DNA from: Hyphomicrobiaceae bacterium
Lineage (GTDB): Bacteria > Pseudomonadota > Alphaproteobacteria > Rhizobiales > Xanthobacteraceae
NCBI GenBank assembly: GCA_947472885.1
Contig: CANJBX010000005.1
Coordinates: 1 to 64,000, forward strand
DNA length: 64,000 nt
Reading direction: 5' to 3'
A model generated the notes under the pieces. That model searched no databases. It saw nothing but the letters and a program-made list of their open reading frames with translations, and was not told where the DNA came from. Both the position numbers and the translations under genes were made by a program. Numbering within the stretch: the first letter of the stretch is position 1; the number at the start of each line of letters is the position of its first letter. Below are positions 32,613-42,613 of the stretch, in pieces.

Positions 32613-33197
32613 ATGGACCCCACGCTTAAAATCGTCATCGTCGATGAAAACCCGATCCGGGCGGCCATTCTCGAGGACGGCCTGCAGGAAGCCGGCTTTA
32701 CGCAGGTGGTGCGTATTGCGGAAATGACCAACCTGCTGTCGCGCATCTACGCGCTCGATCCCGAAGTCATCCTTATCGACCTGGAAAATCCGAGCCGCGA
32801 CGTGCTGGAGCAGATGTTCCAGGTCAGCCGCGTGGTGAAGCGGCCGATTGCGATGTTCGTCGATAGCAGCGATTCCGCTTCCATTCAGGCTTCCGTCGAT
32901 GCGGGCGTTTCCGCCTATATCGTCGATGGCCTGAAAAAAGAGCGCATGAAACACATCCTCGATCTGTGCATCTCGCGCTTCAATGCGTTCTCGCGCATCC
33001 AGGGTGAACTCGAAAAAACCAAGACGCAGCTTGAAGAGCGCAAGGTGATCGACCGCGCCAAGGGCATCCTGATGAAGGCCAAGAACTTGACCGAGGAACA
33101 GGCCTACGCCCTCATGCGCAAGACAGCCATGAACGAGAACAAGAAGATCGCCGAGATCGCACAGTCTATTGTGATGGCTTCGGACCTGCTGAAGTGA
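32613..33197 (+). CDS. nasT: ANTAR-domain response regulator (NasT)
   Basis: Receiver-like N-terminus and C-terminal ANTAR segment AKGILMKAKNLTEEQAYALMRKTAMNENKKIAEIAQSIV; overlaps nasS by 4 bp. Confidence 0.9.
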   Translation: MDPTLKIVIVDENPIRAAILEDGLQEAGFTQVVRIAEMTNLLSRIYALDPEVILIDLENPSRDVLEQMFQVSRVVKRPIAMFVDSSDSASIQASVDAGVSAYIVDGLKKERMKHILDLCISRFNAFSRIQGELEKTKTQLEERKVIDRAKGILMKAKNLTEEQAYALMRKTAMNENKKIAEIAQSIVMASDLLK

Positions 33198-34360
33198 GCA
33201 CGGAAATGAACGAGCGTTTGCGCATAGGCTTCATTCCGCTGTGCGACGCAGCGGCGCTGATGATCGCAGTCGACAAAGGCTTCTGCGCGCAGGAGAAGCT
33301 CGACGTCGAATTGATCCGCGAAGTGTCGTGGTCGAACGTGCGCGACAAGCTCAACATCGGCATTTTCGACGCTGCCCATCTCATCGCGCCGATTGCCATC
33401 GCGTCGAGCCTCGGCCTCGGGCACGTCAAGGTGCCGATCATTGCGCCCGTCGCGCTTGGCATCAACGGCAATGCCATCACGGTTTCGCCCGCGCTTTATC
33501 GCGCGCTGGCGGCAGAAGCGGGTGACGGCATCATCGATCCGCTCAAGACCGCGCAGGCGCTGGCGCGGCTGGTGGCGGAGCGCAAGCGCAAGGGCGAAGC
33601 GCCGTTCACCTTCGGCATGACGTTTCCCTACTCGACGCACAATTATCATTTGCGCTTCTGGATGGCCGCGGGCGGCATCGACCCAGACGAAGACGTGCGG
33701 CTGGTGGTGTTGCCGCCGCCCTACATGGTGGATTCGCTCGCCAGCAAGCAGGTCGATGGCTTCTGCGTCGGCGCGCCCTGGAATTCGGTCGCGGTCGATC
33801 AGAACGTCGGCCACATCCTGCATTTCATGTCCGACATTCTGGCCAGCGCCAGCGAGAAGGTATTGGCGCTGCGCCAGACCTGGGCAAATGAAAATCCCGA
33901 TGTCGTGACGCGGCTCATTCGCGCGCATCACCGCGCCGCGCAATTCGCGGACGACCTCGCCAACCGCGACGAAGTCTGCAACATCCTCGCGGCCCCGAAC
34001 CGCATCGGCATCGCCGCCGAAGTGATCCGCCGCACCCTGGACGGCAAGCTGAAAGTCGCACCCGACGGCACGACGCGCGAGAGTACGCGCTATCTGCAAA
34101 TCGGCAGGAATGGCGCTGCCCGCCCGAACCCGGTCCATGCCGCGTGGCTCTACGCCCAGATGGTGCGCTGGCGGCAGGCGCCGCTGTCGGCGGCGTTGCT
34201 CGCGCAGGCCAGGGCCGTGTTCCGGCCGGACCTATATGATGCCGTCACCGGCACGTCCGCCCAGCCCGCCACAGGCGAACCGGCCGACAGCGTCGGGGCT
34301 TTCGCAGGACCCGCCTTCGATGAAGGCGATCTCGCCAAGTACCTCGCCGCCTGGCGGTAA
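33194..34360 (+). CDS. nasS: NrtA/CmpA-family nitrate-sensing protein NasS; GTG start
   Basis: CmpA/NrtA family protein without an obvious signal peptide, translationally coupled to nasT. Confidence 0.85.
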   Translation: MSTEMNERLRIGFIPLCDAAALMIAVDKGFCAQEKLDVELIREVSWSNVRDKLNIGIFDAAHLIAPIAIASSLGLGHVKVPIIAPVALGINGNAITVSPALYRALAAEAGDGIIDPLKTAQALARLVAERKRKGEAPFTFGMTFPYSTHNYHLRFWMAAGGIDPDEDVRLVVLPPPYMVDSLASKQVDGFCVGAPWNSVAVDQNVGHILHFMSDILASASEKVLALRQTWANENPDVVTRLIRAHHRAAQFADDLANRDEVCNILAAPNRIGIAAEVIRRTLDGKLKVAPDGTTRESTRYLQIGRNGAARPNPVHAAWLYAQMVRWRQAPLSAALLAQARAVFRPDLYDAVTGTSAQPATGEPADSVGAFAGPAFDEGDLAKYLAAWR

Positions 34361-34397: not shown

Positions 34398-34416
34398 TTT
34401 TGTGCATTGCACAAAA
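34398..34416. promoter_or_regulatory. Perfect inverted repeat TTTTGTGCA-T-TGCACAAAA, possible regulator site
   Basis: 9-bp perfect arms around a single T, ~145 bp upstream of the predicted nrtA transcription start. Confidence 0.4.
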
Positions 34417-34532: not shown

Positions 34533-34550
34533 TTGGCACGGCCTTTGTAT
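34533..34550 (+). promoter_or_regulatory. Sigma54-like promoter TTGGCACG-GCCT-TTGTAT
   Basis: Close match to YTGGCACG-N4-TTGCW, with GT instead of GC at the -12 element. Confidence 0.65.
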
Positions 34551-34561
34551 AGGGAAGGACA

Positions 34562-34600
34562 GCGGACCTCTCAAAAAGGTCTGCGGTCCAACGAAGGACC
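34562..34600 (+). promoter_or_regulatory. ANTAR-type two-hairpin RNA target in the nrtA leader
   Basis: P1 GCGGACCT-CTCAAAA-AGGTCTGC; P2 GGTCC-AACGAA-GGACC, hexaloop with A1 and G4. Confidence 0.7.
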
Positions 34601-34610
34601 ACGACCGCAC

Positions 34611-34665
34611 GCCGCGATTGGGAGGAGCGCGCTGCAGCGCCTCACGACGCGGCTTTTTGTTTTTT
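34611..34665 (+). terminator. Leader intrinsic terminator (predicted target of NasT antitermination)
   Basis: GCCGCG ... CGCGGC with internal GC-rich stem followed by TTTTTGTTTTTT. Confidence 0.8.
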
Positions 34666-34712
34666 GCACCTGACACGACCGCCAAACCCGATCACCGAAA
34701 GGACCCAGGTCA

Positions 34713-36032
34713 ATGACGACCGAGACCAAGACCCCAGCAGCCGGCACCTTCAGCCGCCGCAAATTCCTCAAGGCAGGAGCAAGCACTGCCGCTCTGCTAA
34801 GCGCAGCCAGGTTCAATTTCCCCGGCGGCGCGTTTGCGCAGACCGCAGGCCCGGAGGTCAAGAAGGCAACGCTCGGCTTCATCGCCTTGAGCGATGCCGC
34901 TCGCCTGTTCATCGCAAAGGAAAAGGGCCTGTTCACCAAGTACGGCATGCCGGACGTTGAAGTCGCCAAGCAGGCATCGTGGGGCGCGACGCGCGACAAC
35001 CTCGTACTCGGCGGCGAAGGCAACGGCATCGACGGCGCGCACATCTTGTCGCCGATGCCCTACCTCATCAGCGCCGGCAAGGTGACGCAGAACAATGCGC
35101 CGACGCCGATGTATATCCTCGCGCGCCTTAACCTCGATGCACAGTGCATCTCGGTCGCCAAGGAATACGAAGACCTCAAGATCGGTGTCGATACCGCGCC
35201 GCTGAAGATCGCCTTCGACAAGAAGAAGGCGACGGGCAAGCCGGTCAAGGTCGCGATGACCTTCCCCGGCGGCACCCACGACCTGTGGATTCGCTACTGG
35301 CTCGCTGCCGGCGGCATCGATCCCGACAAGGACGTCGAGACCATCACCGTTCCGCCGCCGCAAATGGTGGCGAACATGAAGGTCGGCACCATGGACGCGT
35401 TCTGCGTCGGCGAACCTTGGCCGGGCCAGCTCGTCCATCAAGGCATCGGCTACACCGCCATCAACACCGGCGAACTGTGGGCCAAGCACCCGGAAAAATC
35501 GCTCGGCATGCGCGCCGACTGGGTCGACAAGAATCCGAAGGCTGCTCAGGCCATCCTGATGGCCGTGATGGATGCCCAGATGTGGGCCGACAAGATGGAA
35601 AACCGCGAAGAAGTTGCGGCGATCTGCGCCAAGCGCCAGTGGATCAACTGCCCGGTGGAAGACGTCACCGACCGCATGAAGGGCAGGTTCGACTACGGCA
35701 TTCCCGGCAAGGTCGTCGAGAACTCGCCGCACATCATGAAGTATTGGCGAAATCACGCGTCCTATCCGTTCCAGAGCCATGACCTGTGGTTCATGACCGA
35801 GGACATTCGCTGGGGCAAATATGACGCCGGCTTCGACAGCAAGGCGCTCATCAAGAAGGTCAATCGCGAAGACCTTTGGCGCGAGTCGGCCAAGACCCTT
35901 GGCGTTGCCGCAGCCGACATTCCGGCTTCGACCTCGCGCGGCAAGGAAACGTTCTTCGACGGCAAGGTATTCGACCCGGAAAATCCGGCCGCCTACCTCA
36001 AGAGCCTCACCATCAAGCGCGTCGAGGTTTGA
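34713..36032 (+). CDS. nrtA: Nitrate ABC transporter substrate-binding protein (NrtA-like, Tat signal)
   Basis: SRRKFLKAGASTAALLSAARFNFPGGAFA Tat-type signal; CmpA/NrtA family core. Confidence 0.88.
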   Translation: MTTETKTPAAGTFSRRKFLKAGASTAALLSAARFNFPGGAFAQTAGPEVKKATLGFIALSDAARLFIAKEKGLFTKYGMPDVEVAKQASWGATRDNLVLGGEGNGIDGAHILSPMPYLISAGKVTQNNAPTPMYILARLNLDAQCISVAKEYEDLKIGVDTAPLKIAFDKKKATGKPVKVAMTFPGGTHDLWIRYWLAAGGIDPDKDVETITVPPPQMVANMKVGTMDAFCVGEPWPGQLVHQGIGYTAINTGELWAKHPEKSLGMRADWVDKNPKAAQAILMAVMDAQMWADKMENREEVAAICAKRQWINCPVEDVTDRMKGRFDYGIPGKVVENSPHIMKYWRNHASYPFQSHDLWFMTEDIRWGKYDAGFDSKALIKKVNREDLWRESAKTLGVAAADIPASTSRGKETFFDGKVFDPENPAAYLKSLTIKRVEV

Positions 36033-42594: not shown

Positions 42595-42613
42595 GGCTGA
42601 AGGCTGAAGGCTG
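42595..42613. repeat. 7-bp tandem repeat GGCTGAA GGCTGAA GGCTG causing the nasA frame shift
   Basis: Direct reading; removal of one 7-bp unit restores ...GLKAVDMFDAIARGEIKALWVMGTNP. Confidence 0.9.

Follow-up and report, generated by a model that had tools for sequence, protein, structure and literature searches.

How is transcription of the nrt-nir-nas operon controlled in a soil-type alphaproteobacterium that carries the genes for a nitrate sensor and an ANTAR-domain protein directly in front of it? We analyzed a 64,000-nucleotide stretch of DNA (hereafter the window) from the draft genome of this organism (3.88 Mb in 128 contigs) and propose, with a probability of about 0.75, that nrtA has an ANTAR-class leader, in which a sigma54-type promoter feeds a transcription attenuator dependent on NasT. 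The nasT gene (32613–33197, forward strand) codes for a response-regulator-like receiver domain (PF00072, Response_reg) joined to an ANTAR RNA-binding domain (PF03861, 5.7e-22), and its product is the sole ANTAR match in the genome in a profile search. Encoded next to the leader, this NasT aligns with EutV and retains the RNA-contact residues, with equivalents of Arg142, Lys149, Glu160, Tyr164 and Met172. The nasS gene (33194–34360, forward strand) specifies a cytoplasmic, NrtA-like nitrate sensor (NMT1_2, PF13379, 2.2e-72) akin to the NrtA/CmpC sensor domains in the PDB. Both genes are intact; their position directly upstream of the leader had been noted in a preliminary description of this DNA. 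The controlled operon opens with nrtA (34713–36032, forward strand; PF13379, 9.2e-105), whose orthologs share 63–85% identity. The genome also encodes RpoN (TIGR02395, 423 bits) and one strong NtrC (TIGR01818, 725 bits) in which the GAFTGA motif is present.

The putative sigma54-type promoter (34533–34550, forward strand) reads directly in the sequence as TTGGCACG (34533–34540), GCCT (34541–34544) and TTGTAT (34545–34550), which places the −24 GG at 34535–34536, the −12 G at 34547 and the predicted start near 34559–34560. The string TGGCACNNNNNTTGNA occurs a single time in the 64 kb, where 0.08 occurrences are expected. A weight matrix derived from 63 distinct orthologous boxes, with the window left out, gives the window box 27.3 bits versus 7.7 for the runner-up site in the 64 kb, the fixed positions of this matrix being partly imposed because the boxes were collected with a search pattern that demanded TGGCA and, a set distance away, TG[ATC]A. 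Apart from excluding G, the pattern did not impose the split at the variable −12 position, where the base after the −12 G is A in 51, T in 10 and C in 2 of the 63 boxes. The window box has the GG at −24 and the correct spacing, and its −12 element reads GT, not GC; the preliminary description had taken this T for a departure, and the counts make it ordinary in the group. Nearly every nrtA ortholog has a sigma54-type box, which, together with the rpoN and GAFTGA-type ntrC genes, bears out the earlier assignment and supports a promoter of the sigma54 type ahead of nrtA, as judged from sequence. Elsewhere in this genome, the glnK-amtB pair is preceded by a sigma54-type box, TGGCACGGGGCTTGAT, with GA at −12 (L194:859, reverse complement).

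Further upstream lies the palindrome TTGTGCATTGCACAA (TTGTGC-N3-GCACAA; 34400–34414, no strand assigned), which, like hairpin 2 discussed below, was absent from the preliminary description. It is found in nearly all nrtA orthologs, whether nasS is linked or not, and is missing from a few leaders (L009, L010, L015, L019, L059 and L121). The orthologous copies deviate on average at 1.0–1.5 of 12 positions, versus 4.7 in shuffles, and their spacing to the box falls into two narrow classes (−117 to −122 or −130 to −133). This pattern suggests that the palindrome is a candidate enhancer site, behaving like one that a bacterial enhancer-binding protein would occupy, and makes it a concrete target for finding the activator of the nrt-nas operons in this group. 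The palindrome has no further exact copy in the 3.88-Mb genome, and a quick inspection of the open reading frames beside its near matches showed no obvious link to nitrogen. A search for the repeat at the glnK-amtB promoter of the same genome gave none that was clear (best match with 3 mismatches). Assignment as an enteric NtrC site (GCAC-N7-GTGC) was rejected because the orientation is wrong.

Two bases past the predicted start, the leader begins with a 5′ hairpin (P1 in the preliminary description; 34562–34584, forward strand) of 8 bp, in which the arms GCGGACCT (34562–34569) and AGGTCTGC (34577–34584) enclose the 7-nt loop CUCAAAA (CTCAAAA in the DNA, 34570–34576). It is followed immediately by ANTAR hairpin 1 (formerly P2; 34585–34600, forward strand), GGUCC-AACGAA-GGACC, where GGTCC (34585–34589) and GGACC (34596–34600) flank the canonical A1/G4 hexaloop AACGAA (34590–34595). 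A 5-nt linker (34601–34605), inside the 5–12-nt range of the eut genes, leads to the equivalent of ANTAR hairpin 2 (34606–34616, forward strand), CGC-ACGCC-GCG, which has a 5-nt loop and shares the 5′ arm of the intrinsic terminator. The latter (34611–34665, forward strand) consists of a hairpin (34611–34653, −23.6 kcal/mol) and the T-run TTTTTGTTTTTT (34654–34665). Direct reading thus placed every element that had been listed earlier (box, P1, P2, terminator and T-run) where that listing had it. The 55-nt hairpin region folds with −21.3 kcal/mol (z = −3.5; 1 of 200 shuffles equally stable) and the entire leader with z = −2.9 relative to shuffles. Single-sequence predictions give −46.3 kcal/mol for the terminator state and −37.4 kcal/mol when the pair is forced; a terminator state favored by free energy alone is what one expects where read-through needs a protein. 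Predictions for partial transcripts also contain an alternative fold, in which CCUCUCAA in the 5′ hairpin (34567–34574) pairs with UUGGGAGG on the left side of the terminator (34618–34625) over 8 complementary bases.

Which of these hairpins form the ANTAR pair was assessed at about 100 orthologous nrtA loci from the family and order of the window, with the upstream stretches taken by genome coordinates; a DNA search for leaders of close relatives returned distant ones only. In leaders linked to nasS, the order is box, 5′ hairpin, hexaloop hairpin (commonly GGTCC-AAYGAC-GGGCC), AGC-AANGCC-GCT and terminator, and the 5′ arm of the terminator begins within the AGC-AANGCC-GCT hairpin. Overlap of hairpin 2 with the terminator 5′ arm was found in 27 of 31 leaders. 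The second hexaloop, defined as R1/G4 with G allowed at position 1, is present in 43 of the 44 nasS-linked leaders, the exception being the window. Leaders devoid of a linked nasS have it in 13 cases and lack it in 51, and some of these 13 could reflect chance or a nasTS located farther off or outside the fetched stretch. Most of the unlinked leaders retain the sigma54 box while the ANTAR pair is missing, including those of one genus with large genomes that we take to be Bradyrhizobium. Since orthologs without a linked nasS mostly lack the pair yet keep the promoter layer, formed by box and palindrome, this layer and that of the RNA appear to act as separable modules.

The pair is also marked by its base changes. 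In an unfitted alignment that excludes the window, 91.5% of the pairs are standard and two-sided changes occupy 8 cells in 3 pairs, values reached by 0 of 500 shuffles for the cell count and by 18 of 500 for the pair count. A larger alignment of 45 matches yields 94.2% standard pairs and 23 two-sided cells in 4 pairs, figures that lean toward structure as the matches were fitted to the model. The pair model, built without the window, finds matches in 19 of 61 relatives, mostly one per genome and nearly all at the nrtA operon. Ramesh et al. described an element, AGCAANGRRGCUY, the P2 consensus of Enterococcus faecalis, that overlaps the eut terminators (PMC3369931). Because the AGCAANGCCGCUG of the relatives matches this element in kind and place, we identify the P2 of the preliminary description as ANTAR hairpin 1 and the hairpin within the terminator arm as hairpin 2. 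These comparisons support an ANTAR pair made of hairpin 1 (34585–34600) and the terminator-overlapping hairpin 2 rather than of P1 and P2. The preliminary description had recognized the right class of element, a NasT/ANTAR attenuator ahead of nrtA. Variants of this arrangement occur among the leaders: L127 and L021 have three consecutive A1/G4 hexaloop hairpins ahead of the terminator, and L019, L117 and L118 have ANTAR-like loops with G1 in place of A1 (GACGCC, GAAGCC), for which a change in NasT specificity is possible. Leaders L041–L067 and L130–L142, which lack a linked nasS, share a conserved GACGCC-ATTGAA-GCCGTC just past the predicted start, which amounts to an A1/G4 hexaloop on a stem with a C-C mismatch.

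The preliminary description named two departures, in the P1 loop and in the −12 element. One departure does exist, but it is neither of these: the 7-nt loop of P1 is no departure, because the relatives' loop at this position ranges from 3 to 8 nt, and the −12 GT is discussed above. The one that was missed lies in hairpin 2, whose loop, ACGCC, is one base short and carries its G at position 3; where the window has a single A, two are found in most relatives. The stem is retained through a two-sided change from A-U to C-G that is matched by the other (3′) arm of the terminator. A covariance-model search, which had been suggested as a check, did not recover the window: the pair model gives it 17.6 bits (E about 1.5, near whole-genome chance), as compared with 39–51 bits for the 16 training orthologs, and an Rfam search returned nothing relevant. 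We attribute the low score to hairpin 2, where the loop has 5 nt and a G in third place. In a search of the window's own genome for other ANTAR targets, the best model matches were at chance level (E of 0.17 and above). In E. faecalis eutP, altering A1 or G4 in either loop lowers induction, so that all four positions matter, and structural work has assigned the contact to G4 and suggested that Met172 may gauge loop size. Since the other nasS-linked leaders have one base more in the second loop, the window probably has a read-through that is weaker, leakier or tuned in another way. Decay, sequence error and a tolerated variant are each possible origins of the short loop.

The operon and its leader could be decaying, nasA being broken and the hairpin 2 base having been lost under relaxed selection, such that the terminator would now be constitutive or poorly relieved; we regard this as a tentative possibility on the unlikely side. 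The reading frames of nasA are split at about 42605 by a tandem duplication of the 7-bp GCTGAAG (two copies, 42596–42609) at a site where the nasA of relatives is a single frame, and a search of the whole genome for a second close NasA found none. Because of this frameshift, operon decay may be under way in this assembly, and the window is the only one of 44 nasS-linked leaders without the second R1/G4 hexaloop. Yet the reading frames of nasT, nasS, the nrtABC-type genes, the nitrite reductase gene nirA and the flavoprotein gene are all uninterrupted, and the terminator, hairpin 1, the stem of hairpin 2, the sigma54 box and the palindrome are retained.

It is doubtful, though conceivable, that the short loop is tolerated outright, NasT working through one canonical hexaloop and a second hairpin that overlaps the terminator and has a loop of 5 nt, in which case the two-hexaloop rule would be looser than thought. 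Two further leaders may mirror the window, as judged by eye and from single-sequence folds: in L107 and L117, hairpin 1 has a loop of 5 nt (ATCAA and GAGCA, respectively) and hairpin 2 a hexaloop (AACGCC, A1/G4, and GACGCC, G1/G4). Along with the window, they are natural loop-length variants with which the need of ANTAR proteins for two hexaloops can be tested.

It seems distinctly improbable that an error of assembly or sequencing accounts for the missing loop base, and perhaps also for the nasA duplication, and hides a fully canonical leader: the genome is a 128-contig draft and the single A of the window is matched by two in most relatives, but the remaining long genes of the window are uninterrupted and frequent indels are not evident. 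No second copy of the species was found for comparison, the genus being represented by this genome only. It is also very unlikely that P1 (34562–34584) and P2 (34585–34600) are the NasT pair with the P1 loop as a 7-nt variant, as first proposed, for although the two fold stably side by side and most nasS-linked leaders have a hairpin at the P1 position, in some with an A1/G4 hexaloop (AACGAC in L127, AACGGG in L021), the loop there varies among relatives in sequence as well as length, that of the window (CUCAAAA) has neither A1 nor G4, P1 and the terminator do not overlap, and the P1–P2 linker is 0 nt whereas eutP induction is impaired already at 3 nt.

We return to the attenuator built on hairpins 1 and 2. 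Under nitrogen limitation, an enhancer-binding protein, most likely NtrC, would activate RNA polymerase–sigma54 at 34533–34550. The nascent transcript would fold the 5′ hairpin, then hairpin 1 (34585–34600) and then hairpin 2 (34606–34616), the 3′ strand of which would double as part of the terminator 5′ arm (34611–34653). When nitrate is lacking, NasT would be held by NasS and the terminator would prevail; when nitrate is available, freed NasT would bind the hairpins, hairpin 2 would block the terminator, and nrtA and the genes beyond would be transcribed. By analogy with known systems, such layered control, by nitrogen through NtrC and sigma54 and by nitrate through NasS and NasT, is plausible. 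In Paracoccus denitrificans, where layered control has already been described, NtrC and NasTS govern the nas genes (PMC5424462), and RpoN is required for nrtA expression in Bradyrhizobium DOA9. Across a large alphaproteobacterial family, our data also put the NasT target in its correct position.

As in the window, nasTS lies directly upstream of the P. denitrificans nas leader (PMC5424462), and the NasT targets of Paracoccus and Bradyrhizobium diazoefficiens (PMC5424462, PMC6759348) likewise combine a hairpin leader before nas or nrt genes with general nitrogen control. Unlike these targets, the window operon opens with nrtA and a sigma54-type box, and its second ANTAR loop is of 5 nt. The EutV-dependent eut attenuators of E. 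faecalis (PMC3369931, PMC8934654) resemble the window in having hairpins 5 nt apart, the second sharing the terminator 5′ arm; in E. faecalis, where the linkers of the eut genes span 5–12 nt, neither 3 nor 14 nt will work. The eut signature AGCAANG..GCU is shared by the relatives of the window, and the window NasT keeps the RNA contacts of EutV, whereas the second loop of the window, ACGCC, is no A1/G4 hexaloop. EutV is switched by phosphorylation, whereas NasT would be freed by NasS. The Klebsiella nasF leader and NasR share with the window a nitrate-responsive ANTAR antitermination of nitrate assimilation together with Ntr control; NasR senses nitrate itself, whereas the window splits sensing, assigned to NasS, from RNA binding, assigned to NasT.
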